A stretch of 64,000 nucleotides of DNA from a virus. Under the pieces are notes generated by a model that was given only the letters and a program-made list of their open reading frames with translations, was not told the origin of the DNA and ran no database searches. Position 1 is the first letter of the stretch. Each line of letters starts with the position of its first letter. The position numbers and the translations under genes were made by a program. Below are positions 3,129 to 43,798 of the stretch, piece by piece. The DNA lies in IMG/VR virus record IMGVR_UViG_3300044796_000662, positions 62,001 to 126,000 of that record; one strand, given 5' to 3'.

Positions 3129-3746
3129 ATGTTCTTTCGAGACGAAGACGACGATCTGCGCCGCACACCGCCTCGCAACCTCGGCATCGAGGCAGGCTTG
3201 AACGATCGTGAACGAGCGCAGGCGGCGTACGACCGGATGATGCGGAGCCACCCCGGCCAGATGATGGACTCCGGGGTCACCGTGGACGATGTGCTGAAGA
3301 AGCCGTTGCCAACCCCGCCACCTCGTCCTGCCAAGCCTGAAGAACCCACGGGTGCGATGGCCCGCTACACCGCTCGCATCGAGAAGTTCGAGAAAGACGG
3401 GCGTCCCATGCCCCGTCTTCGGCATCATGCCCTCTGGCTCCTGCACAACTGCGTGGCGCACCCACTTCTGGCCGTGACAGGCAAGAACGTTCAGCCGCTC
3501 GCCGTCGAGTTCCACGAGTTGACGAGCCAGTGGCTCAATCACAAGAGGGCCGCCAATGTTCCAGGTGGCCCCGTGGAACGCCGTGACCGCTTCCTCCAGA
3601 TCATGATGCCCCAGGTCGAGAACGAAGGCTCCTGGTTCATCCACAATGTCCTCGCCCACGTGGCCATCGGCCTCGTGCCCTGCAAGACCACCTTCGACCT
3701 GCACGACTGGAGCGCCGAAGTGATGGGCGTTCCTGGATGGGTCTGA
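3129..3746 (+). CDS. Hypothetical protein with duplicated HN-x3-AH motif, 205 aa
   Basis: N-terminal 95 residues are charged and Pro-rich (LPTPPPRPAKPEEP). The C-terminal half holds two related blocks: WLLHNCVAHP at about 103-112 and WFIHNVLAHV at about 169-178, each followed by a basic or polar stretch and an aromatic-His segment (EFHEL, FDLHDW). This looks like an internal duplication of a small His-containing unit. Function unknown. Overlaps the RNase HII start by 10 bases, so the two are probably co-translated. Confidence 0.8.
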   Translation: MFFRDEDDDLRRTPPRNLGIEAGLNDRERAQAAYDRMMRSHPGQMMDSGVTVDDVLKKPLPTPPPRPAKPEEPTGAMARYTARIEKFEKDGRPMPRLRHHALWLLHNCVAHPLLAVTGKNVQPLAVEFHELTSQWLNHKRAANVPGGPVERRDRFLQIMMPQVENEGSWFIHNVLAHVAIGLVPCKTTFDLHDWSAEVMGVPGWV

Positions 3747-4432
3747 GCGAGAAGGTCGCCGCTGCCATCGAGGCCGCCGACTTCGTGGTGGGGTCGGACG
3801 AGTGCGGATACGGTGCCTGGGCCGGTCCCCTGGTCGTCTGCGCGGCCGTTCTGCCCAAGGCGTGGCCCTACGTCCACCTGGTCCGAGACTCGAAGCAGGT
3901 GCGGACTGAGGAGCAGCGCGAGGCCATTGCCAGGCAGATCCTCCCGCACCTCACCTACGAGATCCTGAGCGTCCCTCCCGAGGACATCGACCGCATCGGC
4001 GTGTCCAAGGTGCTGCCTTGGGCGCACGGCAAGGTGCTCGACCTGGTCATCGCGAAGCACGAGGCGTCGGGTGCCAGGGGCCAGCGTATCGTCATCGTAG
4101 ACGGCTCGCTGAGCATCCTCTACGGCGAAGGCCAGAAGGCGATCTCGGTCGTCAAGGGCGACTCCCTCGTCACAGCGGTGTCCGCGGCCAGCATCCTCGG
4201 CAAGGTCGCCAGAGACACGACCATGATCGCCTTGGCGGCCAAGTTCCCCGGCTACGGCTTCGAGAGCCATAAGGGCTACGGTGGCGGAGACGACCACGCG
4301 CACACCCTCGCGCTAGAGAAGCTCGGCCCCTGCGAGATCCACCGCAAGAGCTACAGCCCGGTCCGGAACCGGATGCAAGGCCCGAGCACGAGCCTCTTCG
4401 ATCTGGCGATGAGCGGAGAGCTGGACGACTAA
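3737..4432 (+). CDS. rnhB: Ribonuclease HII
   Basis: Cleaves the RNA strand of RNA-DNA hybrids, for example Okazaki primers. Signature GSDECGYGAWAGP gives catalytic D21 and E22; DSKQ follows at 51-54. The third and fourth acidic residues fall in VDG (D122) and the KGDSLVTAVSAASILGKVARD block (to D160), and the HKGYGGGDDH and HRKSYSPV motifs match the family. Length 231 aa is normal apart from an added tail. The last 14 residues, TSLFDLAMSGELDD, are identical to the end of the next protein (Dam) and resemble a clamp-binding peptide. Confidence 0.95.
   Translation: MGLSEKVAAAIEAADFVVGSDECGYGAWAGPLVVCAAVLPKAWPYVHLVRDSKQVRTEEQREAIARQILPHLTYEILSVPPEDIDRIGVSKVLPWAHGKVLDLVIAKHEASGARGQRIVIVDGSLSILYGEGQKAISVVKGDSLVTAVSAASILGKVARDTTMIALAAKFPGYGFESHKGYGGGDDHAHTLALEKLGPCEIHRKSYSPVRNRMQGPSTSLFDLAMSGELDD
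4388..4429 (+). repeat. Coding copy 1 of shared C-terminal tail
   Basis: Encodes TSLFDLAMSGELDD at the end of RNase HII. The second copy is at 5309-5350 in the Dam gene. The 42-base copies encode the same 14 residues but differ at several third positions (for example CTC/TTG, CTG/CTC, GAC/GAT), which suggests selection on the peptide rather than recent DNA copying. Confidence 0.85.
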
Positions 4433-4434
4433 CG

Positions 4435-4446
4435 CGGTGTAGGGGG
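4435..4446 (+). promoter_or_regulatory. CGGTGTAGGGGG element before dam
   Basis: CGGTGTAGGGGG lies 4 bases before the GTG start at 4451. It is one of twelve copies (see 14603-14614). It sits in the 18-base gap between rnhB and dam, so it could be either an internal promoter for dam or a strong ribosome-binding element. Confidence 0.55.
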
Positions 4447-4450
4447 TCGC

Positions 4451-5362
4451 GTGAAACACGCGCACCCGTTCATCAAGTGGGTTGGCGGCAAGACGCAGCT
4501 ATTGCCCAAGCTCCTGGGACTGATCCCGAAAGAGATCAAGACCTACTACGAGCCGTTCCTGGGAGGGGGTGCTGTCTTCTGGGCCCTCGCCAAAGAGGGG
4601 CGCTTCGAGCAGGCCATACTCAACGACTGGAACGAGGAGCTGACCAACACATACAAGGTCGTCCGCGACAAGCCGGAGTCCCTCATCGAGCAGCTCACTA
4701 TCTTCGCGGACGAGTACAAGGCCAACCCAGAGGAGACATTCAGTACCATCCGCGCGTACGACCGCGAGGACATCACGAAGTACAACCCCGTGGTCCGCGC
4801 AGCACGGATGATCTTCCTCAACAAGACCTGCTACAACGGCCTGTACCGGGTGAACAAGGCGGGCCAGTTCAACAGCCCGTTCGGCGAGTTCAAGACTCCG
4901 CCAACCGTCTGTGATGCGCAGAATATCCGGGACTGCTCTGCGGTACTCGAAAAGGTACCAACCATCCACACGGGGGACTTCGCCCTGATCGCAGAGATGG
5001 CGACCGAAGGGGATGTGGTCTACTTCGATCCCCCGTACGAGCCCGTCTCGGACACGGCCGACTTCACCTCATACACGGAGGTTGGCTTCGGACGAGAAGA
5101 CCAGCTCCGGCTGGCCTCCCTGTTCAAGAAGCTCGCCGAGCGTGGCGTCCGGGTGCTCATGTCCAACCACGACACGCCGAGCATCCGCGAGATGTACGCG
5201 GGCTTCGAGGTCATCCAAGTTCCGGCCCGACGCAACATCAACAGCAAGGGCTCGAAGCGCGGGCACGTCATGGAGGTTGTTGTTGTGAGCCACCCGGTGC
5301 CGAAGGACACCAGCTTGTTCGACCTCGCGATGAGCGGGGAGCTGGATGATGCAGCACCATGA
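4451..5362 (+). CDS. dam: DNA adenine methylase (Dam type, class D12)
   Basis: SAM-dependent N6-adenine methyltransferase. N-terminal FIKWVGGKTQLLP and YYEPFLGGGAVFW form the SAM site; the catalytic DPPYEPVSDTADFTSY motif lies in the C-terminal half and is followed by a GVRVLMSNHD strand. It starts with GTG. Without a visible restriction partner it probably protects phage DNA or marks it. The final AAP follows a 14-residue tail identical to that of RNase HII. It overlaps the next gene by 4 bases (ATGA). Confidence 0.95.
   Translation: MKHAHPFIKWVGGKTQLLPKLLGLIPKEIKTYYEPFLGGGAVFWALAKEGRFEQAILNDWNEELTNTYKVVRDKPESLIEQLTIFADEYKANPEETFSTIRAYDREDITKYNPVVRAARMIFLNKTCYNGLYRVNKAGQFNSPFGEFKTPPTVCDAQNIRDCSAVLEKVPTIHTGDFALIAEMATEGDVVYFDPPYEPVSDTADFTSYTEVGFGREDQLRLASLFKKLAERGVRVLMSNHDTPSIREMYAGFEVIQVPARRNINSKGSKRGHVMEVVVVSHPVPKDTSLFDLAMSGELDDAAP
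5309..5350 (+). repeat. Coding copy 2 of shared C-terminal tail
   Basis: Encodes TSLFDLAMSGELDD near the end of Dam (residues 287-300). Partner of 4388-4429. Confidence 0.85.
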
Positions 5363-5715
5363 GGCGGTTCTATCTACGGCGTGACGAAGATCTGAGCGGG
5401 GTCTCAGGGAGCGGAGTCGTCGCCGAGGGTGTGGTGTTCTGGAACGGCAAGTGCGTGCTCAACTGGCGCACGAAGTTCACGAGCACGGCGCACTACGACG
5501 ACCTGGAGACGCTCTTGAACGTGCACGGGCACGGCGGCAAGACCCGGCTCATCTGGTTCGACGACAAGCCTTCGGAGCCGAAGGCCAGCATGGGCGAAGC
5601 CGCTCAACCGGCTTGCTCATTCTGTAGCAAGCTCGCGAACGAGGTGAAGCTCCTCACCTCCGGGTTGCCTTCGTCGCACGCGTACATCTGCGACGAGTGC
5701 AAGGCCAAGCCTTAG
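5359..5715 (+). CDS. Small protein with ClpX-type zinc finger, 118 aa
   Basis: The N-terminal domain (1-70) resembles a small phage/actinobacterial family with FYLRRDEDLSGVSGSGVVAEG and a conserved HGHGGKTRLIWFD end. After a linker comes a four-Cys finger (C86, C89, C112, C115: CSFCSKLANEV to YICDEC) that closely matches the zinc-binding domain at the N-terminus of ClpX. In ClpX this domain binds substrates and adaptors and dimerises. The phage encodes its own ClpX at 26778, so a role as adaptor or decoy is possible but inferred. Confidence 0.8.
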   Translation: MRRFYLRRDEDLSGVSGSGVVAEGVVFWNGKCVLNWRTKFTSTAHYDDLETLLNVHGHGGKTRLIWFDDKPSEPKASMGEAAQPACSFCSKLANEVKLLTSGLPSSHAYICDECKAKP

Positions 5716-8656: not shown

Positions 8657-9388
8657 TCAGGTGAGGAAACGAGCAGCGACACGCTCGGCGAGCCCAAGCG
8701 AAGCCGTTTTCGTTACGGCAGTTGACCCCTCGGTCGTGTAGGTGGATTCGAGCCCAGGATCGAGATAGTTGAAGCGAATCAAGTCCGCTTCCAGACCGAC
8801 CTCATCGGCCACCTTGTCGAGAGTCTTGAGGAACTCAGCGCGAAGCACCTTGGTACGAGCCCGGCGCTGCGTGGGAAGCGATTGCCCGGCCGACCGTGTT
8901 TCGTTCAGAGCCGAATGCATCCTGACGTTGGCGTTGTAGCCTCGGATGTCCTTCATCGAGAGCTTGTGCCGGCTCAAATAATCCCCGACCATCTCGGCCG
9001 TGACCCTGCCTGTGTCGTGGGCGAACAGCTCGTCGTTGTCGTCTTCTGTGGTCTCGAACGCCGTCTGAAGAGCCTGGATGATGGTCCGGTTCGCTATCGG
9101 CCGACGCTTGCCAGCGCTTCGGTAGGTCGCGGACCACTCTTCCTCCCCCAACTCGACGTTCTTCTTACGCCAACCCACGGGGTCCTCGTTGGTCTCCACC
9201 ATGAGGCCAACCGCCAAAGCCGTGAGGAACCTGTTCGGGTCTCCAGAACTCAAGTCGCGGCGGATGCGTCCCTGCATCGACTCGACCGCCGAACGAATGC
9301 GGCTCAAGCGTCGCGAGGTCGAGCGTGCCTTGCGCTCCTCGCTCATCATACCCTTGGCTTTCGCGCGTGCGAGAACGTTGAAGTTCAC
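8657..9388 (-). CDS. DNA topoisomerase IB-like protein, 243 aa
   Basis: Relaxes supercoils through a 3-prime phosphotyrosyl link. The catalytic-domain pattern of small bacterial/viral IB enzymes is present: FLTALAVGLMVETNEDPVG, a KKNVELG..YRSAGK strand, LFAHDTGRVTAEMV, and MKDIRGYNAN (145-154, with R149). The candidate nucleophile is Y208 in NYLDPGLESTY. It starts with GTG at 9388, overlapping the previous stop as GTGA; an ATG further upstream would run through the neighbouring gene. The last residues (GLAERVAARFLT) carry the RVAAR peptide found at the N-termini of other proteins here. Confidence 0.7.
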   Translation of the reverse strand: MNFNVLARAKAKGMMSEERKARSTSRRLSRIRSAVESMQGRIRRDLSSGDPNRFLTALAVGLMVETNEDPVGWRKKNVELGEEEWSATYRSAGKRRPIANRTIIQALQTAFETTEDDNDELFAHDTGRVTAEMVGDYLSRHKLSMKDIRGYNANVRMHSALNETRSAGQSLPTQRRARTKVLRAEFLKTLDKVADEVGLEADLIRFNYLDPGLESTYTTEGSTAVTKTASLGLAERVAARFLT

Positions 9389-11637
9389 GCTGTGGCCTCC
9401 TCGTCGGCGGGCGGCAAGCCCTCGGGAGCCTTGCCGGTCTTGATGACACTCAGGAGCCACTTCGAGGGCTCTTCCTTGAGGTGGCCAAGCACGAACGTTG
9501 TCAGCAACTCGGCGAACCATTCCATGTGGTTCTTGCGCGAGTAGGTCGTGGGGACCCAATCGTGGAGCTGCACTTCGTAGCGGTCGTCGGGCTTGCTGAT
9601 CTCTCCCTTCAGAGTCTCATAGACCTCGTGCCGTTCCTTCTCGACCTCTTTCAGCTCCCGCTCCTTCGCCTCGTCCTTCCCCACGTAAGTCAACGTGGAG
9701 GCAGACTCCGGCACGACAAGCGGGCCTGGCCCACGACGATACATCGAGCTGCGGAGGAGGTACTTCTCCGGCGCTTCGATGATCTCGATGAGGACGTCCC
9801 GGCCCTTCTTGCCGACGATCTTCCCCTTGATGTGGTACTGAACACCGTTTGACCAGGTGTCGTACTCGACCACGGTTCCCTTGCGTGGGAGCGGCCGGTG
9901 GATGTACTGCGTCTCTTCCAGTTCCTTGTAGCGCTTGTTGAGTACGTCGAGGCGCCGCTTCAGCACGTCTCGCGATCCCCCAGCTTGCGTGCGCTTCTGG
10001 CGCATGGCCCACATGAAGCGGGTCATGACCTCGACGTTGTTCTGGCCGCCCGGCACCACCTTGTCGTGGTAGTAGTGCGCCAGCTCGTGGATCAACGTGT
10101 GGAGGAAGCTTGCGTCCTCGTACGCCTTGGGTGCCACCTGGATCGCGGGTGGGCTCGAACCCATGTGGTACACGGCGGCTGCGTGCGAGCCGATGCCGCC
10201 ACCGTAGAGCGCCACAAGGATGTTGTCCTGAAGCGGCACCCCGGCGGCCTGGTACTTCTGCTCGGACTCCAGGAGTAGCTTGCCAACTTCTTCGAGGTGC
10301 TCGGCGTGCTGCTTGATGTAGCGCACCTTGAACCGACCGAACTGCTCCTCGTTGAACTGCACTGCCGCGTGCCGGTTCTTGAGGGCGTCGCGAAGGCTCT
10401 GGTCCGGGCCGATGCCGAGGTTGTTCCGAAGCGTGTTCGCCATCGAGTGGGCCTCGTTGTACGAGATCCCCATCTCCTGCATGATCTGACGGTCGCTCAT
10501 CCCTGACATGAACAGGTGGGCGAAGTCGTGGAGCTTCTTGTCGAAGGCCCCGCCACCCGTGCACTTGCAGCCGCCAGCGGTCTTGCCGGCCGCCTCGGCT
10601 TCCGCCTGTGCCTTGAGCGCGTTCTCCTTCACGTCTGCACGCCAGACCTTGTAGAGCCCGAAGACCTTGTTCTGCTTGCGGCCCTTGGGAATCGGCTCGA
10701 CTTCGATCGTGGGGTTGCCCCACTTGTCCGTACTGAAACCAACGATCTTGCCGCGCTTGTTCTTGTACTTGCCGTACAGAACGATGTCGCCCGGCTTGAA
10801 GTAGTTCGCGTACTTGAGTGCGACGCTGGCGGCGAGTCGGTCCATTCCCCCTTGCTCGTCGAAAAGTAGCTTAGCCTGCTCCATCCGGTCGTAGACGCCC
10901 TTGAGGATGGTCGCCTTGTTCTTCGGCGTCAGATGGTCCTCGATGACCTTCCACGTCGTGGACAGAAGCAGCGCGTAGTGCAGGAGTTTCTGATTGGGGT
11001 GGGGGTCCTTCTCGGCGCGCTCCCGTAGCATCACATGCATCTGGTCGCTCTTGCCGACGTTGTGGATCACCTCGTCGGCGATCTGCTGCATGAAGGCCCG
11101 GACCTCCGAGGGATCGTTGATGTATGGACCCCAGGCCGCCTCCCCCTTCTCCATGACTTCCTTGGGGGAGTAGGTCAGCCCTTTCATGTGATCCATCTCG
11201 GCGGCGTGCGTCGCCTCGTGGATCAGGAGTGAGTACAGGCCGTAGTTCAGGCACGTCTCAGCCCGGCACGAGTGAATGGGCTGGATGCGAAGAGGAGCCG
11301 TGAGGGACCCTTCTGTGTTCAGGTACTCGGCCGGAGTGAGCGCCCCGTTGATCTCCAGCTCGATCACCCCGGGACGTGTCCGGCCTCCGAGCACGGCAGC
11401 GTACTTGCCCTTAGCCTCACGAGCCGACACGTAAACGTCGTACCGAAGAGGGTAGCCTTTGACGGACTCGATCCGAAGCGGCTCTCCGCGGACGATCCCG
11501 TCCACATGCCCGATCGGCTCGTCTTGCTTCTGCCGGCGCAACCAGCGCACGATCTCCGGCACAAGCTGGCCTTCGACGAACTGCGCAATCGCGCCCTTGT
11601 CGAGCCAGATCGGTCGGGTAGCAGAGCGGTCCATCAT
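9385..11637 (-). CDS. Large protein with two HExxH metallopeptidase-like domains, 750 aa
   Basis: Residues 1-260 form a first domain with HEATH (140-144), clearly paralogous to the 242-aa protein at 26026: shared RPIxLDKG start, LIHExTHAAE, EVRAxMQQI and DHLTPxNKAxILKxVY. Residues 280-330 look like a small beta barrel (GDIVLYGKYKNKRGKIVGF). A Cys pair (CKC) and helices follow, then a second HELAH (517-521) in a different context. The C-terminal 200 residues are charged. Probably two zinc gluzincin-like units fused; whether it acts in the cell or in the virion is unknown. Confidence 0.8.
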   Translation of the reverse strand: MMDRSATRPIWLDKGAIAQFVEGQLVPEIVRWLRRQKQDEPIGHVDGIVRGEPLRIESVKGYPLRYDVYVSAREAKGKYAAVLGGRTRPGVIELEINGALTPAEYLNTEGSLTAPLRIQPIHSCRAETCLNYGLYSLLIHEATHAAEMDHMKGLTYSPKEVMEKGEAAWGPYINDPSEVRAFMQQIADEVIHNVGKSDQMHVMLRERAEKDPHPNQKLLHYALLLSTTWKVIEDHLTPKNKATILKGVYDRMEQAKLLFDEQGGMDRLAASVALKYANYFKPGDIVLYGKYKNKRGKIVGFSTDKWGNPTIEVEPIPKGRKQNKVFGLYKVWRADVKENALKAQAEAEAAGKTAGGCKCTGGGAFDKKLHDFAHLFMSGMSDRQIMQEMGISYNEAHSMANTLRNNLGIGPDQSLRDALKNRHAAVQFNEEQFGRFKVRYIKQHAEHLEEVGKLLLESEQKYQAAGVPLQDNILVALYGGGIGSHAAAVYHMGSSPPAIQVAPKAYEDASFLHTLIHELAHYYHDKVVPGGQNNVEVMTRFMWAMRQKRTQAGGSRDVLKRRLDVLNKRYKELEETQYIHRPLPRKGTVVEYDTWSNGVQYHIKGKIVGKKGRDVLIEIIEAPEKYLLRSSMYRRGPGPLVVPESASTLTYVGKDEAKERELKEVEKERHEVYETLKGEISKPDDRYEVQLHDWVPTTYSRKNHMEWFAELLTTFVLGHLKEEPSKWLLSVIKTGKAPEGLPPADEEATA

Positions 11638-12743
11638 CGTCTCCTGACCAGGATGCGGTCGCCCTGGCTGTTCATAAGGGCGATCTGATCGTCTGACAGA
11701 CGGTTGGGGTGCGTCGCGTAGAGCGTCACGGGTCCCTTTCGAAAGACGATCTTCACGCGAACCTCGCGGCCGCCCTTGTCCTGCCAGACATCGGCGACCG
11801 TGCCCTTCTCGCGCGCCCCGATGTCCAGGTCCCGGGAGCCTTTGAGCACTTCGATCGTGTCACGAGGCTTGAGTGCGAACTCGCCTCGGATCTTGTTCGG
11901 ATCGTCCTGGACCTCGAAGAGCTTCTCGTGCTTGCGCTTCTGTTGGAGGATCTGGAACGAGGTCGGGATGGGATTCGAGGGCCGAAGGTGGATCCCGATG
12001 CGTGCCGTCTCGATCGCATCGTCCTTGCTCGGAGCATCATCAACGATGACCTTACCGTCGTTCGTGAGCACCTTCCAGACGTTACCCTCCTCCGTGACCC
12101 GCACGTCCACGCCGAGGATAGAGCCCTGGAAGAGCTTGGGGTGCACCTCGCGCAAATCAATGTCCTTGACCGGACGTTTGGCGACGTACTCCTTGGCGTC
12201 CTCGATCGACATGGGCACCATCTTGTGATCCGGGTGCACCACAAAGAGGTCCACGTCATGTACCCCCACGGTCATCGAGCACCCAAGCCCGAAGTTGCAG
12301 ATGTTGGCGTCGATCACCGCAGGCTGCTTCTCGGGGCCGTTCGGGTCGAACTCCACCTTGGGGTCGAGATGGTGAAACGTGGTGCCGATCGCGTCGTACT
12401 TCGCGAGGAAGAGGTCGTCCCCGTAGCGGCCGCCCCGCAGCCGGTTGCCGACCTCGATGACCTCCGTAACGTTCTCGGCCCACGATGCTCCGTGAGCACG
12501 TTCAGCGGGAGTCGAGTAGGTGCCGCCCGTGATCTGGCCAGTCTTGAGGATGCGGACCAGCTCCTCCCCGTCGAAGATGCGGTAGAGGGTGAAGCTGGAA
12601 TCGAACTCGGCGACGATCTGGTTCGGCAGAGACGTGAACCGCTGGCGGATCTTGTTCGTCGCGTCACGGTCGATGAGGATGCGGACCGTGCGCGCGTAAC
12701 GCACTCGAAAGCGCGTCAGAACACGGGTAGTCAGCGCGTCCAT
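11634..12743 (-). CDS. Hypothetical protein, possibly ADP-ribosyltransferase-like N-terminal domain, 369 aa
   Basis: After a basic N-terminus (RVLTRFRVRYARTVR) comes LYRIFDGEELVRIL, then GGTYSTPAERAHGASWAE and a later FLAKYDAIG strand. An initial Y-R, a following S-T or S-x-S and an acidic patch recall ADP-ribosyltransferase folds, but no complete R-S-E or H-Y-E triad can be confirmed. The C-terminal third is beta-rich (IEVLKGSRDLDIGAREKGTVADV), like a KOW/SH3 barrel. Overlaps its neighbour by 4 bases. Confidence 0.75.
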   Translation of the reverse strand: MDALTTRVLTRFRVRYARTVRILIDRDATNKIRQRFTSLPNQIVAEFDSSFTLYRIFDGEELVRILKTGQITGGTYSTPAERAHGASWAENVTEVIEVGNRLRGGRYGDDLFLAKYDAIGTTFHHLDPKVEFDPNGPEKQPAVIDANICNFGLGCSMTVGVHDVDLFVVHPDHKMVPMSIEDAKEYVAKRPVKDIDLREVHPKLFQGSILGVDVRVTEEGNVWKVLTNDGKVIVDDAPSKDDAIETARIGIHLRPSNPIPTSFQILQQKRKHEKLFEVQDDPNKIRGEFALKPRDTIEVLKGSRDLDIGAREKGTVADVWQDKGGREVRVKIVFRKGPVTLYATHPNRLSDDQIALMNSQGDRILVRRR

Positions 12744-12746
12744 GCC

Positions 12747-13592
12747 CTACCGCCGGCATCGAAACAGAACCGCCCCAGGAGGGACGATGAGCTGTTCGAG
12801 CCAGCCGTAGAACCCGTTGATGTCCGCGAATTGAGGGAAGAATCTGGACGCGCCGCCGGCGTCGCCAGGGTCGGTCCCCCCGTCAGGCCCCACCCCCCAC
12901 CCCGTGATCCCGTCGCTCTGACGCCTCTTTGTAGGGGTCACGTTGCCCCGAGCCCGTAGTTCCCCGCTGAGGGCGTCCAGAGCGAGCCTGGGGCACCCTG
13001 GGACGCACGACCAGTCGTTGACGGTCTCCAACCCGTCCGCGTCGGCATAGCCCTCCCAGGCGCCTGTGCGGGTCGTCCGCGTGCCCTTCTGCGAGAACTG
13101 CGTCGAGCTACCCCCAGGACCGTTGGGGTAGCCCTTGTGGCCGGGGATGCGGGACTGTCCGGGGGTGCATTCGGGCGTGTGAACGATGGCTAGGTTGGTC
13201 GGCCATCGTCCTCCTGTATGGCTCTCCGTGTAATTCAAGTGCCCGTTTCCCCAAGCATCGTCACTATGGGGAAACGTTCCGCGAGGTCGCCCACGGTCCT
13301 CTGTGGTGGCAACTCGGCAGACGTCGATGTGGAGTCCCCCTGTACCCGTCGAGAGCACTTGCTCCGCCACCGTGGGAGCCTCCAGGGGCTTGCGAAAGAG
13401 CAACACAGGCTCAGCCCGCGGCCCAGGCAAGAGCACGAGCAGCGTGTCCCTCAGGTGCAGCCCCGCCTGCCTGGCATCCAGGGAGGCCATGGGGTTGTCA
13501 CCGAAGACGGCAACGAAGGCCCCAGGGGACAGCTCGTCGATGACCCCGAAAGCCGAGTCCCCGAAGAAGAGGAACGCAGCCCCGAAGGTCAC
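12747..13592 (-). CDS. Truncated or degenerate DNA methyltransferase-like protein, 281 aa
   Basis: Matches the C-terminal two thirds of site-specific N4/N6 DNA methylases: LRDTLLVLLPG, EPVLLFRKPLE, VAEQVLSTGTGGLHIDVCRV, GRWPTNL and a late SRFFPQ segment. The N-terminal part, which in intact enzymes holds the SAM-binding and catalytic DPPY motifs, is missing; the protein starts at the strand equivalent to the late-core GAFVAVFGD. It overlaps the DHH gene upstream by 4 bases, so no hidden N-terminal piece remains. Either a decayed gene or a non-catalytic DNA-recognition subunit. Confidence 0.75.
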   Translation of the reverse strand: MTFGAAFLFFGDSAFGVIDELSPGAFVAVFGDNPMASLDARQAGLHLRDTLLVLLPGPRAEPVLLFRKPLEAPTVAEQVLSTGTGGLHIDVCRVATTEDRGRPRGTFPHSDDAWGNGHLNYTESHTGGRWPTNLAIVHTPECTPGQSRIPGHKGYPNGPGGSSTQFSQKGTRTTRTGAWEGYADADGLETVNDWSCVPGCPRLALDALSGELRARGNVTPTKRRQSDGITGWGVGPDGGTDPGDAGGASRFFPQFADINGFYGWLEQLIVPPGAVLFRCRR

Positions 13593-20652: not shown

Positions 20653-21189
20653 TCATTCGTCTTCTCCCAGAGTATCGCCCAGAAGATGATCATACGCTGT
20701 CAGGTGCTTGGGTTCCCGTTTCACCCGACTGAACTGAGCGTCCGTCCCCTTACGGGCGATGGTGGTGAAGCGCTTCGGGATGACAACGCTGGTCTGACCC
20801 TTCTCGAACTTCACGACCACCCTTTGCGGGTGCACGAGCCTCAGCGAAGGCCGCAAGAGCAGTGCGCCCCCTGCACGCAGAGGCTCTCCCACCACCCAGC
20901 TCTGGAACTGTCGTAGCCAGAACAGGTCCCCCACTCTGTTGGGGAGCGCCACGCCCGTGACTCGGCCCGGGTTTCTAGTGCCTGGGGTCCGCACCGGCAA
21001 AAGAACGTGCGGCCAGTCCCGATACGGGTTGCACCGGACCTTGCAGTTGTCGGGGTCCGTCGTGTTGAGTGTGTCCGAGACACGACGAGTCGTGCCCTCG
21101 GCTGTTGCGACGTACGCGTTCCCGGCCTCATCCAGCCGGACCACGAGCCAGACCTTGCCCTGCATGTCAATGAGATCGCCCAGGTCCAT
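20653..21189 (-). CDS. Hypothetical protein, 178 aa
   Basis: First gene after a terminator hairpin (21213-21246) and a CGGTGTTAGGGGG element (21195-21207). Beta-rich with SH3/KOW-like start (IDMQGKVWLVVRLDEAGNAYVATAEG) and a basic C-terminal part. No family recognised. Confidence 0.75.
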   Translation of the reverse strand: MDLGDLIDMQGKVWLVVRLDEAGNAYVATAEGTTRRVSDTLNTTDPDNCKVRCNPYRDWPHVLLPVRTPGTRNPGRVTGVALPNRVGDLFWLRQFQSWVVGEPLRAGGALLLRPSLRLVHPQRVVVKFEKGQTSVVIPKRFTTIARKGTDAQFSRVKREPKHLTAYDHLLGDTLGEDE

Positions 21190-26768: not shown

Positions 26769-26780
26769 ATAGGAAGACTA
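26769..26780 (-). repeat. Near copy of the 13-base repeat (ATAGGAAGACTA)
   Basis: Differs from ATAGAAGGACTA by local transposed bases; same position between a stop and a start. Confidence 0.3.
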
Positions 26781-28061
26781 CGCGCGGGCCTTCAGAGTCC
26801 GACGCCCATCGACGATGATCGGCACTCCCTTACCCGTGATCACGTCGGCCGTGATGCGGATGCTCGCGATGTCCATGCTTGGACCATCGTAGGCGTAGGG
26901 TGCGAGAGTCTCCTCCAGGATCGAACGGAGCCCACGCGCTCCCGTGGGTCGGCGCTTCGCCTCCTGGCCGATGGCCAGGAGAGCATCCGTGTCGAACTGC
27001 AAGTCGATGTCGTCCATGGCGAAGAGCGCCTGGTACTGCTTCACGAGGGCGTTCTTCGGCTCCGTGAGCACCTTGACCATGTCCTCGTCAGACAGCTCCA
27101 GCGTGCTCGTAACGATGGGCAGACGGCCGAGCATCTCGGGGATGATCCCGAACTCCAAGATGTCCTCGCCCTTGACCTCCGTGTAGACCTCGTTGAGCGT
27201 GAGCTTGCGCCGCTTCGTGTCCTCCGAGCCGAAGCCGAGCCGCGAGGACTTGTTCACCCGCTGCTCTACCACCTCGTCGATGCCCGCGAAGCTGCCCGCA
27301 GCAACGAACAGGATGTTGGTCGTATCGAGCACGTCCACGTTCGAGCGCACCTCGCCGTTGGGGCCTACAGACGTCACGGACACGTTCTTGCCCATCCCAC
27401 GCGTGACGGGCACAGAGCAGCCTTCCAAGGTCCGCAGCATGCCTTGCTGGACGCCTTCGCCCGTGATGTCGCGGTAACCGGAGGCGGAACGTCCGCTCTT
27501 GCGGGCGATCTTGTCGAATTCGTCGAGCAAGATGATGCCCCACTCGGCGCGCTGGATGTCCCCGCCGGCGTTCTGGACGAGCCCGCGAAGCATGTCGTCC
27601 GCGTCGTCGCCCACGTAGCCTTGCTGCGTCAGCCGGGTGCAGTCCTGCGTGTAGAACGGGACCTTCAGAAGCTCGCTGATCGCCCTGAACGTCTCGGTCT
27701 TGCCCGAGCCAGTGGGGCCGAGGATCAGCATGTTGGACTTCTGGACCTTGATCGAGCCCGCCTTCTTGGCCCGAGCCGCGTCCCTACGCTTGAAGTGGTG
27801 GTAGACCGCGGTGGAGACCGCCCTCTTCAGCCTTTCCTGCGCGATGATGTGCTCGTCGAGGTACGCCTTGATCTGATGGGGCGTCCCAAGGACGGGCTCC
27901 CGCTTCTTGTCGCCCTTGGGGGCCGACTGCTCGATGAGGTTCGAGGCTCCTTCCACGCACGTCTCGCAGATGTAGACGCCGTTGCCCTTGATCAGGCGGT
28001 TGTTGGGGACCTCGTTCTTCTCGGACCCACAGAAAGAGCACACCTCGTGGTCGGTCGGCAT
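26778..28061 (-). CDS. clpX: ClpX-type AAA+ unfoldase
   Basis: Unfolds proteins and, in bacteria, feeds them to ClpP. All parts are present in 427 aa: zinc-binding domain (C8, C11, C32, C35), Walker A GPTGSGKT (115-122), pore loop GYVG (148-151), Walker B IILLDE (176-181), the ClpP-docking IGF loop as LGFG (275-278), Arg finger near EMLGR (313) and sensor-2 GARGLR (374-379). No ClpP gene is seen in the window, so it may use host ClpP or act alone. A CCGGTGTAAGGG element precedes it. Confidence 0.95.
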   Translation of the reverse strand: MPTDHEVCSFCGSEKNEVPNNRLIKGNGVYICETCVEGASNLIEQSAPKGDKKREPVLGTPHQIKAYLDEHIIAQERLKRAVSTAVYHHFKRRDAARAKKAGSIKVQKSNMLILGPTGSGKTETFRAISELLKVPFYTQDCTRLTQQGYVGDDADDMLRGLVQNAGGDIQRAEWGIILLDEFDKIARKSGRSASGYRDITGEGVQQGMLRTLEGCSVPVTRGMGKNVSVTSVGPNGEVRSNVDVLDTTNILFVAAGSFAGIDEVVEQRVNKSSRLGFGSEDTKRRKLTLNEVYTEVKGEDILEFGIIPEMLGRLPIVTSTLELSDEDMVKVLTEPKNALVKQYQALFAMDDIDLQFDTDALLAIGQEAKRRPTGARGLRSILEETLAPYAYDGPSMDIASIRITADVITGKGVPIIVDGRRTLKARA

Positions 28062-28067
28062 CAGCCG

Positions 28068-28079
28068 CCCTTACACCGG
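28068..28079 (-). promoter_or_regulatory. CCGGTGTAAGGG element before clpX
   Basis: 6 bases before the ATG at 28061 and 1 base from the TAG of the preceding gene (28081). Confidence 0.58.
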
Positions 28080-28080
28080 G

Positions 28081-28665
28081 CTAGCAGTCTACCAGCACCC
28101 CATCCGTCAGAAACGCGTGGTAGCCGGGGTACTTACCGCGAGCGGGGATGAGGATGCTCGGCCGTACGGTGATCTTGGGGATCGTGCCGGTACGCGTCCA
28201 AGGCGTGCCATCCGAGGAGGACAGGTCCGGCATCCACTGACCGCCTGGGGTCATGATGCATAGGCACTTGCCATCCGGACCTCGATGGTCCATCGGGAAC
28301 CAAGGACAGTCCCACATTGCGCCCACGGGAGCGTCACGCAAGGTGATCTCCTCTTCGACGCCAGGGCGGTGATAGAGCACTTCCGGGAAGACCTGCCAGT
28401 GGTCCTCTTCCACGAAGACGTAGTCGCAGTCGTCGCACTTCTGCGGCCAGCGCGGATCGTCATGGGCGGGCATGGCATCTTCAGGGAACGGGGCCAAGGT
28501 ACCGTGCTCCGAGAAGACTGCTTGAACGGTGCCAAAGGGCGCATGTCCGTTGTGGTAGCCGAATCGACCGGGGCACTTGTCCTTGTCGTCAGAGCCTCTG
28601 TATCGCCGAAGCTGCTCACGGACGAAGCCCGTTTGCTCGATGAGAAAGCACTCGATCTGACTCAC
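28081..28665 (-). CDS. Hypothetical Cys/Trp-rich protein, 194 aa
   Basis: Contains CDDCDYVF, an MWDCPWFP segment, a C-rich turn (GKCLCIMTPGG), TVRPSILI and an aromatic YHAFLTDGVLVDC end. The order PSI..HxFxTDG resembles small phage proteins of the DUF6527 type, low certainty. Stop lies directly next to the clpX promoter element. Confidence 0.75.
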   Translation of the reverse strand: MSQIECFLIEQTGFVREQLRRYRGSDDKDKCPGRFGYHNGHAPFGTVQAVFSEHGTLAPFPEDAMPAHDDPRWPQKCDDCDYVFVEEDHWQVFPEVLYHRPGVEEEITLRDAPVGAMWDCPWFPMDHRGPDGKCLCIMTPGGQWMPDLSSSDGTPWTRTGTIPKITVRPSILIPARGKYPGYHAFLTDGVLVDC

Positions 28666-33085: not shown

Positions 33086-33591
33086 TAGTCCGTGTCGCCC
33101 TGAACGAGGAACCCACGGCAGGCGCGCCGGGCCAAGAGCTTCTTGGTCCCGGTCTCGTCCATGAACTTCATGAAGCGGGAGAGGCCGTCCGCGAACTCCG
33201 CGTCCGAATGCACGAGACCGTGCGGTTCCTCCCGATAGTCCTCCAACTGGAAGAGGGCGTGGTCCCCCTCTTGTGGCACGACTTCGAGAGCGAGCCCAAG
33301 GGGGTGCAGCACCCGCCTGTTCAACTCGAACAAGAGCCCGGTATCGACCAAGTAGCCCGCCGGATCGTCCACGAACGGTGGGGGCGGGGGCGGACGGGTC
33401 GAGGGGTCCCGTGTGAAGCTGAACTCCAAGTCCTCGGGAGGCTCGGCACGCAGCTCCTCTGACACATGCTGGATACCCTCGGAGGCGTCCGTGGGAATGC
33501 GCAGAGGGTAGAGGTCTACCTCGCCATGACCCTCAAGATTGAATCGGGGGTCTGTCTTTGACTCGACGCGCCATCGGCCGCTCTTCGGCAT
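33082..33591 (-). CDS. Hypothetical phage protein, 169 aa
   Basis: Start MPKSGRWRVES preferred over an ATG 5 codons earlier. A GRWRVESKTDPRFN start, a Pro-rich linker (TRPPPPPPF), and LLFELNRRVLHPLGLALEVV, a segment I associate with an uncharacterised family in phage genomes. Ends within the convergent Nudix gene by 4 bases. Confidence 0.75.
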   Translation of the reverse strand: MPKSGRWRVESKTDPRFNLEGHGEVDLYPLRIPTDASEGIQHVSEELRAEPPEDLEFSFTRDPSTRPPPPPPFVDDPAGYLVDTGLLFELNRRVLHPLGLALEVVPQEGDHALFQLEDYREEPHGLVHSDAEFADGLSRFMKFMDETGTKKLLARRACRGFLVQGDTDY

Positions 33592-33628
33592 ACTTGATCT
33601 GTACACCGACTACACGCCGGAGTGAACC

Positions 33629-33940
33629 CTAGACCAACCCCTCGGGGATCGAGTCCACATCCCCCATGGGGATGAGCGCTGGATTTGACAGGACGAACGC
33701 GAAGCCCTTGTGCGCCTTGAAGGTGCGCAGCTCCTCGTCCGTCAGCTCACGAACCAGCTCCCTCTCGACCAGCTCCTCCAGAAGCTTCTTCGTCTGCTTC
33801 AGGTTCAGCCCGATCCAGAGCGAGATCTCCCCGACCAGGAGCGGCCTGTTCTGGTTGCGCAAATAGGAGAGCACCCGCCTCTTGACGGTCCCCCAAAATT
33901 GTGCGGTCGATGTCTGCGGAGTGGACGAACGTGTCGCCAT
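33629..33940 (-). CDS. Winged-helix-like protein, 103 aa
   Basis: Start MATRSSTPQ chosen because AGGGGG precedes it. The body is a typical winged helix: RRVLSYLRNQNRPLLVGEIS, then LNLKQTKKLLEELVERELVREL and a short strand. Likely a transcription regulator or nucleic-acid-binding protein. Overlaps the extended frame of its upstream neighbour by about 190 bases. Confidence 0.75.
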   Translation of the reverse strand: MATRSSTPQTSTAQFWGTVKRRVLSYLRNQNRPLLVGEISLWIGLNLKQTKKLLEELVERELVRELTDEELRTFKAHKGFAFVLSNPALIPMGDVDSIPEGLV

Positions 33941-35375: not shown

Positions 35376-36977
35376 TCAGCCCTCCACGAGTGAGAGACCG
35401 CTTGCGTTCTTGCCGACAATCGGAGGCGCCGCGAAGCGCGCACGGATGCCGTCGTCGGACTCCTTGTCGTAGCCGACCCACTCTTTGAGCGACGCAACCT
35501 CGTCAACCATGGTCTTGAAGATGCGCGGCTTCTTGATGAGCTGCGTCTTGAGGATGTCGTAGTCGAGCGCGGGCTTCTTCGCATGGAAGCTGTCGGTCAG
35601 AGCGGCTTTGATCGCCTGCTCGATCTCGCGCCCCACCATGTTCTCCGCCCTGTCGGACAGCGCGTCGAGGTCGAACCGACGCCAGTCCTGCTTGATCTTC
35701 GACAGGTGGATCTTGAGGATGTCGATCCGGTCCTTCTTGGACGGCAGGTCGAAGAAGAACCGCTCGTCCATGCGGTTGATGAACTCGATCGGCATCGTAC
35801 CGAGGCTGTTGGCGGTGAGCGCCAGGCAGACCGGCGCATCGGTTTCCTGAAGCCAGGTGCTCAGGATGCCGATCATGCGGCTGGTCGTGCCGTTGTCCGT
35901 CTGCGCGCTCGACTGCCCACCAGAGAGGCTCTTCTCGGCCTCGTCGATCCAGACGATGCAGGGAGCGACTCGCTCGATGAGGTTGATGGCGGCGTAGACG
36001 TTGTTCTCGGAGGCGCCGGACAGGGACCCTCGCAGCTTGCCCATCTCCAAGCTCACGACAGGGAGCTTCCAGGTGCTCCCCATGGCCTTGACGCTGAGGG
36101 ACTTGCCGCAGCCCCAGATACCGACCGCGAGAACGCCCTTGGGCGGAACGAGACCGTACTCCCGGCCCTTCTCTGTCCAGGTGGCGGCTGTCTTGACGAC
36201 CCAATCCTTGAACCTGGAGGCACCGCCCACCTGGTCGAACGTGAACTTGCTCGTGTCCACGTACTGAATGAGATCGGTCTTCTTGAGCGCCCTACGTCGG
36301 TAAGCGGTGATGATCTCCGGGTCGATGCGGAACCTCTTGGCAGGGTCCGCATCCTTCTTCGTGACGGAGATGCTGTGGGCAATCGCCATCTCGATTTCCC
36401 AGCTCGTGAGCCCGCGGAAGATCTGCGCTGCGTCGGGGGGCGCTGAAACGACCATCTCCTCGTTGCTGAGCGAGGAGCACGTCGTCTCAACGAGGCCCTT
36501 GATCTGGTCATTGGAGAGCCCCTTGTCGTAGACGACCTCCATGTACCGCGAGAGCTTCTCGGGGATCGCACGGCGCGGCCCGACGAAGATCAAGATCTTG
36601 ATCGTCTTCACGTCGTTGTGGAGCGAGTGTATGATGTTCAGGATGCGACGGCAGACGTTCTCGTCCTTGAACACACGCTCGGGGTCCAGGATGACGTAGA
36701 AGTTCTGCTCGTTGCGCGGGTCGTCCGTGTAGATCTTCTGGAAGACCTTGTTGACCTCGAACTGTTCCTTGTTCTCCGGGTGCTTGTGTTGGGTCCAGTC
36801 GCCGATGACGTCCTGAATCGGCAGGAGCCCCATCGTATAGTTGAAGACCCACATCCGGTGCTTGTACTTCTTGACGCTCTCCGGCAGGTCAATGAGGAAG
36901 CGGTCTTCCTCGTCCGTCACGTAGTAGACGAGACGGTTCAAGGCACGCAGGTGTTGCATGAGTTCTTCGGGCAGCAT
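35376..36977 (-). CDS. Ycf46-type AAA+ ATPase, 533 aa
   Basis: Residues 1-240 form the Ycf46-specific N-terminal region (VFNYTMGLLP, FYVILDPERVF, a helical domain with SNEEM). The AAA core has Walker A GIWGCGKS (286-293), Walker B IVWIDEAEKS (341-350), LTANSLGTMPIEFINRMDE with sensor-1 Asn and Arg finger. In cyanobacteria Ycf46 travels with Ycf35 (DUF1257); the same pairing is seen here. Function in phages unknown; protein remodelling is presumed. Confidence 0.88.
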   Translation of the reverse strand: MLPEELMQHLRALNRLVYYVTDEEDRFLIDLPESVKKYKHRMWVFNYTMGLLPIQDVIGDWTQHKHPENKEQFEVNKVFQKIYTDDPRNEQNFYVILDPERVFKDENVCRRILNIIHSLHNDVKTIKILIFVGPRRAIPEKLSRYMEVVYDKGLSNDQIKGLVETTCSSLSNEEMVVSAPPDAAQIFRGLTSWEIEMAIAHSISVTKKDADPAKRFRIDPEIITAYRRRALKKTDLIQYVDTSKFTFDQVGGASRFKDWVVKTAATWTEKGREYGLVPPKGVLAVGIWGCGKSLSVKAMGSTWKLPVVSLEMGKLRGSLSGASENNVYAAINLIERVAPCIVWIDEAEKSLSGGQSSAQTDNGTTSRMIGILSTWLQETDAPVCLALTANSLGTMPIEFINRMDERFFFDLPSKKDRIDILKIHLSKIKQDWRRFDLDALSDRAENMVGREIEQAIKAALTDSFHAKKPALDYDILKTQLIKKPRIFKTMVDEVASLKEWVGYDKESDDGIRARFAAPPIVGKNASGLSLVEG

Positions 36978-36986
36978 CTTGAGGGT

Positions 36987-36998
36987 CCCTTACACCGG
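36987..36998 (-). promoter_or_regulatory. CCGGTGTAAGGG element before the ATPase gene
   Basis: 9 bases before the ATG at 36977 and just downstream of the hairpin 37007-37039. Confidence 0.6.
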
Positions 36999-37006
36999 AA
37001 ATGATT

Positions 37007-37039
37007 GAAGGCTTGTCCCCTTGTCGAGAACAAGCCTTC
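37007..37039 (-). terminator. Hairpin after the DUF1257-like gene
   Basis: GAAGGCTTGT (37007-37016) pairs with ACAAGCCTTC (37030-37039), loop of 13 bases. On the minus strand it follows the gene ending at 37080, with only a weak T-rich tail (ATCATTTCC). Confidence 0.5.
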
Positions 37040-37079
37040 GAGGAGCCGAACGGAGGGCCGACGTTCGGCCCAGCGGAGA

Positions 37080-37403
37080 TCAGCCGGTCTGGTACGTGAG
37101 GATGATGTTGCCGTCGCGATCGACTTCGCGGCTGTGGATCGAAGCGCCGATGCGGCGCAGCTCCGTCATGTACTTCTGCTCGCCGTAGTGCTGCACGAGA
37201 TTCGTGAAGTCGTCCTTGCGGAAGCTCATGTCGTCGCCCTCGATCTGCCCAGTACGCAGGTCGAGCACGCCGTGTGAGTGGCCCGCGCGAACCTCGAAGG
37301 TGTCGCCGGTGATCTCGCGGAAGTTCGTGCCCGACGCCTTGAAGGCATCGAGAGCGATTGCGCGGTCCTTGATTTCGGTCTGAGTCGTTACCCTCTTCGA
37401 CAT
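37080..37403 (-). CDS. DUF1257/Ycf35-like protein, 107 aa
   Basis: N-terminus TTQTEIKDRAIALDAFKASG matches the start of Ycf35/DUF1257 (short beta strand, then KxxLxxALxxLG). The remainder is alpha/beta with a late NLVQHYGEQKYMTELRRIG helix and DGNIILTY strand. Next to Ycf46 and a DUF2997-like gene, a known trio. Confidence 0.75.
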   Translation of the reverse strand: MSKRVTTQTEIKDRAIALDAFKASGTNFREITGDTFEVRAGHSHGVLDLRTGQIEGDDMSFRKDDFTNLVQHYGEQKYMTELRRIGASIHSREVDRDGNIILTYQTG

Positions 37404-37490
37404 GTGCGTATCCTCTCAGTCTCTCGTTGTCTCGGCGTACCGAGCAATAGCATTCTTGAAAAAACTGGCCTGGGGCGTTTGGAACCGCGG

Positions 37491-42329: not shown

Positions 42330-43798
42330 ACGTTGTTGAGAAGGTCGGTTTCGTCCTGCACGCCCATGCCCGGAGCCGAGTTGTAGAGGTCGAGGTTACG
42401 CATGCGCCGGCAGGTGAAGTCCACCTCGGCGAGGAACGGCTCGAAGAGCGGGTTGTCCCGGTTCTTGAGGCACGAGAACTTCGTCTGCCCCTGTGCACGC
42501 AGTTCCTGGCTGAGATAGGTAGCCGTGACCACGTCTGCGGAGCGCTCGGCCTCGTTCGAGTACGAGAGCGCTTGCAAGTTCTTGTAGATGCCGTCGTTCT
42601 TCTCCGCCTCGGTCTTGCCGGTACGGTTGATCTGGAAGAGCAGGAGCGTCGGCATCCCCTCGCCGTGGTTGAAGTGCAAGGCGAACTTCTTGGCGTCGCG
42701 GAGGATGGTGTTCAGCTCGATCGTGTAGTCCTTCTTGCTGCGGTTCTTCTTGCGGGCTTCCATGAGGCCACCGTGGTCCAGAACCGTGAACCCGATCTCG
42801 GATTGCTTGTGAAGCAGCTCCACTTCGATCCGCGCTTCGTCGAAGTCCACGTCGTGGTCGGGAGCCCACGTGTGGAACTCGCAGTAGTCCGGGTTGTGCG
42901 TGAAGTCGTCGATGACCTTCTGGTAGAAGATCTCTTCCTCGGGCGTGAGGTCCCCGTCGCGCACCTTGCGGTAATCGAGTGCCTTGTAGCCCTCCAACGC
43001 CCAACGAGGGTGCGAGGAGTGCATGACGTAGATGAGCCGGCGGATGTGCTCGTAGCCCATCTCGAACGTCGCATACATGACGTTCGTGCGGTAGCGAGTG
43101 ACCAGGTTGTAGCACCAGTTGGTTGCGAAGGTGCTCTTCAACTCCCCGGCGAACGCCGCGTGGATGTGCAGCTCCTTCTTCTTCAAGCCGTGACAGATGG
43201 TGTCGATCCGGTCGATGCCCGTGAAGCGGCCCCAGACCTTGTCCTTGTTCAGCTTCGCTGTCAGGTACTCGTCCCAGACCTCTTGACCATCCTTGCGGAT
43301 GTCACCCCTTTGGCGTGACCCGCCTTCGAGGACGATCAGGTCGTTGGCCTTGCTGACGAAGTGCATGATGCCGTCTTGCACTCCGCGGCGCTGGATCTCC
43401 TCCCGACCCTCCTTGATGGTCAGGCCCTTCGTGACAATCTGATGGGCCTCCTTGAGAAGCTCCGTCACCTTGCGCTGATTCTGCTGCTCGATGAGAGTCT
43501 TGAGCAGGTGCGCGAAGTTGGTACGGATGTAGAACTGCGCTGCCTCGATGTCCTTGAGGCGCTCGGTAACTTCCGTGTCCTTCTCGAAGTAGTCCCGGAC
43601 CGTCTCGATGGACGGCATCTCCATGTTCGGCTGGAAGTACGACCCGAGGAACTTGTAGATCGCCGTGTCCTCTGGCAGCTCCCACTCCAGGGGTGACTCC
43701 CGGATGCGCTGGAAGTTGAGCAGGAGGTTGTCCTGCGTGAGACCACGTTCTTGCGAGGTCGCGCCGAAGTCGATAACGGAGCGGAGCAGGCGCTTCAT
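42326..43798 (-). CDS. DnaB-like replicative helicase, 490 aa
   Basis: N-terminal helical domain (1-160), then RecA fold: FTGIDRIDTICHGLKKKELHIHA leading to AGELKST (217-223) at the Walker A position, where Gly before Lys is Leu; MYATFEMGYEHIRRLIYVMHS; a VLDHGGL Walker B strand; a late LLLFQINRTG sensor-like strand. Spacing fits DnaB. The altered P-loop seems a feature of one phage subfamily; ATPase activity should be treated as likely, not certain. Confidence 0.85.
   Translation of the reverse strand: MKRLLRSVIDFGATSQERGLTQDNLLLNFQRIRESPLEWELPEDTAIYKFLGSYFQPNMEMPSIETVRDYFEKDTEVTERLKDIEAAQFYIRTNFAHLLKTLIEQQNQRKVTELLKEAHQIVTKGLTIKEGREEIQRRGVQDGIMHFVSKANDLIVLEGGSRQRGDIRKDGQEVWDEYLTAKLNKDKVWGRFTGIDRIDTICHGLKKKELHIHAAFAGELKSTFATNWCYNLVTRYRTNVMYATFEMGYEHIRRLIYVMHSSHPRWALEGYKALDYRKVRDGDLTPEEEIFYQKVIDDFTHNPDYCEFHTWAPDHDVDFDEARIEVELLHKQSEIGFTVLDHGGLMEARKKNRSKKDYTIELNTILRDAKKFALHFNHGEGMPTLLLFQINRTGKTEAEKNDGIYKNLQALSYSNEAERSADVVTATYLSQELRAQGQTKFSCLKNRDNPLFEPFLAEVDFTCRRMRNLDLYNSAPGMGVQDETDLLNNV

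Follow-up and report, generated by a model that had tools for sequence, protein, structure and literature searches.

In a jumbo phage, two adjacent DNA enzymes, ribonuclease HII (RNase HII) and a Dam-type methyltransferase, carry the same 14-residue peptide at their C-terminal ends, and this peptide is maintained by selection. Judged from the sequences of related phages, the tail represents a short linear motif that belongs to DNA methyltransferases and, in some phages, to RNase HII as well, because the tails of the relatives and the ranking of C-termini by a tail profile agree; by the same comparison, the 14-mer in its exact form is confined to this phage, but its class is not. We hypothesize, with moderate confidence, that the tail is a family-specific clamp-binding motif, which would tether RNase HII and DNA methyltransferases to a divergent sliding clamp of the DnaN type that the phage encodes itself.

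The window analyzed here is a stretch of 64,000 nucleotides, bases 62001-126000 of a virus record of 362,937 bases (G000), and positions are given below either in the window or in the genome, i.e., the whole record. Relatives of the G000 portal protein include those of Bacillus phage G and Tunturiibacter phage Tunturi_5, and 54 portal loci are present in IMG/VR, many of them on contigs of 250-530 kb. Besides G000, six relatives were read, G001, G002, G007 and G014 as whole genomes and G004 and G020 to 400 kb. Genes were called with a rough codon-usage script that gave a coding density of 0.58-0.82, so that some genes are missed.

The RNase HII gene (window 3737-4432, + strand) encodes 231 amino acids with a Pfam PF01351 domain at residues 18-207 (E = 3.9e-23), beyond which the protein ends in TSLFDLAMSGELDD (window 4388-4429, + strand), directly followed by the stop codon. 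The neighboring gene (window 4451-5362, + strand) starts with GTG and encodes a 303-amino-acid N6-adenine DNA methyltransferase of the Dam type (D12 class; PF02086, E = 1.3e-65, residues 10-263), in which TSLFDLAMSGELDD recurs beyond the Pfam domain (window 5309-5350, + strand) and precedes an extra AAP and the stop. A preliminary description of this region had reported the shared tail over window 4388-5350, where the identity is exact, and had taken the synonymous DNA differences as a sign of selection, which is borne out: the tail-coding sequences differ at 8 of 42 bases, in seven codons, and every difference is silent, whereas in a simulation eight random substitutions leave the peptide intact about once in 1e6 trials. 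Further, among the 50,086 pairs of C-terminal 25-mers in the genome this pair scores highest (69), the best shuffled score being 45 (n = 100,172 pairs).

It is very unlikely that the identical tails are functionless, as a result of recent tandem copying or chance. The adjacency of the two genes and the restriction of the exact 14-mer to this phage would suit such an origin, but the wholly silent divergence (P ~1e-6), the unrelated flanks (3-6 of 15 bases matching per upstream block) and the recurrence of similar tails on other methyltransferases across the family argue against it. The exact identity of the two copies most likely reflects the copying of one tail onto the neighbor gene, followed by purifying selection. 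No third exact copy was found in a search of the whole G000 genome, and DNA pattern scans for the core tail peptide found none in IMG/VR or GTDB contigs, from which the records nearest to G000 may be excluded. Both tails sit in a flexible segment outside the fold, as indicated by their position outside the Pfam domains and by the low pLDDT at the RNase HII end: in an AlphaFold2 model, the last 21 residues have a pLDDT of 52-60, most of the core exceeds 80, and a short helix is predicted at residues 220-225, over LFDLAM.

RNase HII orthologues were found in 17 and Dam orthologues in 15 of the 27 related records searched, and the two genes are often near neighbors. The literal tail TSLFDLAMSGELDD is absent throughout from the relatives' RNase HII and Dam. 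Absence from close relatives and from any other replication protein had been named beforehand as outcomes that would count against a shared clamp code; both apply in part, to the letters of the tail, whereas the class persists in the family. RNase HII ends in QPDLFDLLAEVD in G020, APDIMELLDSLE in G007, DEPLFSWEVDL in G001 and PERSWELLDD in G014, and in about five relatives it has no such tail. The RNase HII tails that clearly beat shuffled sequences against the methyltransferase profile described below are those of G000, G020 (P = 0.0002) and G007 only. The Dam C-termini of relatives are likewise diverse: that of G001 is PFTYMNALMEEF, those of four records resemble a zinc ribbon, and others have no tail.

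The same kind of tail is found on an N4/N6-class DNA methyltransferase of G000 (g265; genome 305521-308331, - strand), whose C-terminus is SQKDLFDEMADLPE and whose tail reads QKDLFDEMADLPE. In most relatives the motif stands at the C-terminus of the N4/N6 methyltransferase, for example as QQESFNLMLDLPEDE, QREAFDLMLELESE, QREAFELMFDLEQDD, QREGFDLMASLPQEK, QMSLFDFMMELD, SLFDLMMEEGT and AFDLAMSLGDDE, the last two of which almost spell the RNase HII/Dam tail. To rank C-termini, a tail profile was trained on the methyltransferase tails of relatives, excluding in each case the genome under test. Among 323 C-termini of G000, g265 ranks first, Dam second (P = 0.0003-0.0008) and RNase HII fifth (P = 0.002-0.003). 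In G002, ranks 1-3 of 328 are taken by three unrelated DNA methyltransferases, namely the N4/N6 enzyme, a DUF6094 enzyme with a weak SNF2 match, and Dam, and in G020 ranks 1-2 are likewise held by methyltransferases. By a post hoc, simple-motif count with four methyltransferases, the chance of the G002 enzymes filling ranks 1-3 is about 7e-7, or about 6e-5 on the same post hoc count when the methyltransferase homologous to the training set is removed. The DUF6094/SNF2 enzyme has the tail ADLFEFAMSLG in G002 (272886-276878, - strand) but none in G000 (genome 353620-357504, - strand), indicating that tails are gained or lost enzyme by enzyme. The preliminary description had regarded the tail as shared by replication-linked enzymes and had looked to further C-termini, such as those of polymerase and ligase. 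The tail class does extend to other DNA enzymes, as g265 illustrates, but the putative clients are mainly DNA methyltransferases, joined by RNase HII, and neither polymerase nor ligase has the tail.

Two other features of these methyltransferase genes were observed. An intein apparently interrupts the G000 N4/N6 methyltransferase at genome 305521-308331 (- strand; CYDEHTEVLTRKGW...AVWCGN). A 281-amino-acid open frame in the window (12747-13592, - strand) resembles only the middle of this N4/N6 methyltransferase (FRKP...TGTGGLHID) and is perhaps left over from such a gene or part of a split one; when the genome was searched at the DNA level for other copies, the frame itself was the only match.

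No clamp gene had been recognised in the window, and the clamp gene that we identified lies outside it. Profile matches and the structural model of an orthologue show that the phage encodes its own clamp, a divergent DnaN-type protein of 434 amino acids (genome 244949-246253, - strand), along with clamp-loader genes. The neighbors of the clamp gene are genes for an exonuclease, SbcD, SbcC and RecA/UvsX. The PF02767 (DnaN) and PF02916 (gp45) models gave no match in G000-G003, while the DnaN C-terminal model PF02768 gave weak, sub-threshold matches in relatives (G013, E = 6.8e-4; G021, E = 0.024) to a protein of about 420 amino acids, an orthologue of which is present in all seven genomes read; roughly 20 clamps of this kind were found altogether. 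A PF02768 match in G020 was discarded, as comparison with the other genomes placed it in an unrelated protein family. A profile of nine clamp orthologues matched T. maritima DnaN best among PDB entries (1vpk, E = 1.9e-5), and six of its seven matches are beta clamps. The AlphaFold2 model of the G002 orthologue, rather than of the G000 protein itself, has a pLDDT of 91.9 and was aligned by Foldseek with a beta clamp over 435 columns as a full-length three-domain fold (E = 7e-17, TM 0.71/0.81); all 50 PDB matches listed for this model are pol III beta clamps. The phage clamp model resembles the bacterial DnaN clamp along its whole length, although the sequence is far diverged (about 11-16% identity over the structural alignments), and it is this divergence that leaves the Pfam matches below threshold. 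Tblastn with the clamp found no relative among 50,697 phage records, and hhalign of the clamp profile against the single E. coli DnaN sequence returned nothing useful. At the C-terminus, [MAT]P is common to the clamp and DnaN (VTRFMPSYE vs. VVMPMRL).

The loader genes are a DnaX-like gene at genome 241063-241866, which matches phrog_168 (clamp loader, E = 3.8e-23) and, at 241333-241812, PF13177 (E = 2.8e-26), and a delta'-like gene at genome 261785-262231 (PF13177, E = 2.2e-38). An AAA ATPase in the window (35376-36977) was dropped as a loader candidate, since its match is a generic AAA one and DnaX- and delta'-like genes are found elsewhere. T4 gp43 and gp62 had no match among the G000 proteins.

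As described in the literature (PMC11139829), the beta-clamp binding motif (CBM) has the consensus Qphi-x-[LM][FL] and lies in flexible regions or at C-termini with mostly acidic flanks, and its Q is helpful but non-essential, the delta subunit having AMSLF without Q. The tails of the phage family resemble the bacterial CBM in being short, C-terminal and flexible, with an F-containing hydrophobic core and acidic flanks, and several of them (QPDLF, QKDLF and QMSLF) fit the motif, whose narrower form is QL[SD]LF. The resemblance between the SLF of the RNase HII/Dam tail and QL-S-LF, which had been proposed earlier, is a partial one: LF occupies positions 4-5 in both copies, whereas the Q of position 1 is replaced by S in one and D in the other, as E. 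coli delta also lacks it. Q does occur in g265, in the methyltransferases of at least seven relatives and in RNase HII of G020. Most methyltransferase tails depart from the host consensus in that A, S, T or G takes the place of L or M before F, and many members of the family have a core extended to F-[DEN]-L-M-x-x-L. The RNase HII tail of G020, QPDLFDLLAEVD, parallels the clamp motif of E. coli DnaE (Pol III), QADMFGVLAEEPE, the latter read from the genome. Therefore, because the tails are C-terminal and acidic with LF or F, several with Q four residues before F, because of this DnaE parallel, and because the clients make sense when set beside eukaryotic RNase H2 and DNMT1 on PCNA, the clamp is probably the partner of the tail.

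Alternatively, the tail might bind the beta clamp of the host, so that the enzymes of the phage would be carried by the replication rings of the host. Ligands are shared between the beta clamps of different bacteria (PMC11139829), and two C-termini of G001 are canonical (QQDMFAGVEEQ in G001_180 and QLSLF in G001_96). We nevertheless consider this unlikely, since the phage has its own clamp and loader genes and the drift of the tails between phages suits a co-evolving phage partner.

Binding to the phage's own clamp would have precedents in other replication systems. DNMT1, through a PIP box, and archaeal RNase HII bind PCNA, and in T4 the hydrophobic C-terminal tail of the polymerase gp43 (...KASLDFLFG) binds the phage's own clamp in the gp45 system. 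Eukaryotic RNase H2 likewise binds PCNA by PIP boxes (PMC11731006). The PCNA systems thus place the same two activities on a sliding clamp by short, often C-terminal motifs; here, by contrast, the clamp would be of the DnaN type, and the tail is not a PIP box (Qxx-phi-xx-aromatic-aromatic), as TSLFDLAMSGELDD has neither the aromatic pair nor the Q. The C-terminal hydrophobic position of the tail is shared with T4 gp43, but no gp45-type clamp was detected here, and the polymerase belongs to family A and is tailless. This presumed replicase (window 38331-41270, - strand; 979 amino acids; Pfam DNA_pol_A, E = 4.8e-68) ends in ...NLSDGAIYPYPRA, and the motif is absent from it and from its six orthologues. 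The examined C-termini of ligase, primase, helicase and clamp-loader proteins are also without the tail. The passages of a beta-clamp review that were consulted have no entry for DNA methyltransferases or RNase HII, the putative clients here, and the RNase HII of E. coli reportedly does not bind the beta clamp (PMC11253446). Our searches of the open-access literature retrieved no description of a clamp motif in a phage RNase HII or in a DNA methyltransferase of prokaryotes, and none of a methyltransferase or RNase HII bound to a bacterial clamp.

Several of these observations speak against docking on a clamp: the RNase HII and Dam copies lack Q, the residue before F is often small, the polymerase and other replisome proteins are tailless, and many RNase HII and Dam orthologues have different tails or none. 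It is possible, if rather unlikely, that the tail docks on another phage hub instead, such as an SSB-like protein, a helicase, a replication-compartment or nucleus-like scaffold, or a ClpX-type unfoldase. The straying of several members from the canonical clamp motif and the tailless core replisome would suit such a hub, as would the ClpX-like protein of the phage (an ATPase with PF06689 and AAA_2; window 26778-28061, - strand), the second, small ClpX-type zinc-finger protein directly after Dam (window 5359-5715, + strand), and a second class of tails on unrelated small proteins, which shows that C-terminal addressing is common here. On the other hand, the members of the Qx[SD]LF type and the DnaE-like C-terminus of RNase HII in G020 suggest a clamp, the functions of RNase HII and DNA methyltransferases are typical of clamp clients, and a clamp with loader genes is present. 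Known C-terminal ClpX signals also differ from the acidic, amphipathic make-up of the tail, which bears on the further idea that it is a regulated degradation signal (C-degron). That idea, for which the C-terminal position and the ClpX-like genes could be cited, is highly improbable, since the Dam copy has AAP after the tail and nothing ties the tail to turnover.

The second tail class comprises unrelated, mostly small proteins ending in [TNS][LA][WYHF]xx[LIM]xxDD in the same genomes. In G000 its form is [TS]A[WHY]xxL..DDE, with the tails TAWRRLMGDDEY, TAHRRLMGDDEY, TAHQRLMSDDEY, TAWKRLMSTDDDD, SAWDHLRDDDEG and TAYDHLLGDTLGEDE on six proteins (genome 6446-6982, - strand; 27370-28413, + strand; 33271-33771, + strand; 36844-37455, - strand; 43022-43486, - strand; and window 20653-21189, - strand). 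G007 has about ten proteins with TLWDHLxxDE tails, and the relatives tag their own sets of small proteins. Such C-termini exceed expectation in G001 (11 observed vs. 1.7 expected), G002 (14 vs. 2.8), G007 (9 vs. 3.6) and G000 (7 vs. 2.1), and the excess is small or nil in G014 and G004. When built from the other genomes, a profile of these tryptophan-type tails (W-tags) picks out four of the six G000 tails, each with P of ~0.001 or lower against shuffles. The same profile leaves the RNase HII/Dam tail outside the best C-termini, and the idea that the two are one motif was rejected; in the reverse test, the W-tags show a weak tendency toward the methyltransferase profile (Fisher P = 2e-5, median P = 0.16), and the relation between the two classes is suggestive at best. 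It is conceivable, although we find it doubtful, that these jumbo phages use C-terminal tails as a general address code, in which the F-type tail tethers methyltransferases and RNase HII and the [LA]W[DE]xL..DD type, on many small proteins, docks on the same clamp or another common hub. Interchangeable tags, drifting together within each phage, would then recruit much of the accessory protein set to replicating phage DNA.

Other recurrent features were seen in these genomes. Two adjacent, apparently unrelated proteins of 282 and 277 amino acids (genome 251754-252602 and 252761-253594, both - strand) end in GGDFTELLDNV and DNDFTDLFDNL and have no Pfam or PHROG match; all seven genomes encode both, the first protein always with a tail of this kind, and this first protein is possibly a single-strand binding protein whose tail addresses a hub. 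The motif [RQ]V[AL][AT]R[YF] (e.g., RVAARYL and RVLARYL) recurs near the N- or C-termini of many proteins, such as those at window 8657-9559 and 11634-12743 (both - strand), with nine cases in G000 and twelve in G002 by one pattern, and might act as a signal for targeting or processing. Among the other genes of the phage is one for a chaperonin of the Cpn60/TCP-1 family (genome 263979-265628, - strand; E = 5.8e-70).

Taken together, the reading we favor is that this jumbo-phage family uses the tail as a short linear docking motif, in the manner of the CBM of a beta-clamp client. Each enzyme would fold independently, while its flexible acidic C-terminus would sit in the peptide pocket of the clamp. 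The hydrophobic core of this C-terminus is F-[DEN]-x-[LMA], commonly with an L ahead of it, and many clients have a Q four residues before F. Such tethering would keep ribonucleotide and primer removal and remethylation on the freshly replicated DNA that trails the fork, much as RNase H2 and DNMT1 are kept there by PCNA.

Some jumbo phages that have a T7-like family A polymerase were noted to encode an RFC-like clamp loader although no PCNA-like clamp could be detected in them (Iyer et al., 2021; PMC7824862). The cryptic DnaN-type clamp described here bears on this gap, as the present phages combine a family A polymerase, loader genes and a DnaN-type clamp, and the strong divergence of the DnaN-like clamp may explain why such clamps go unseen. 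The tail, the clamp and the clients are small enough for direct testing. If the tails bind, these phages would have reached the eukaryotic solution, in which RNase H2 and DNMT1 work on PCNA, with a bacterial-type ring, and the remethylation of phage DNA, hence its protection, would be coupled to the fork.
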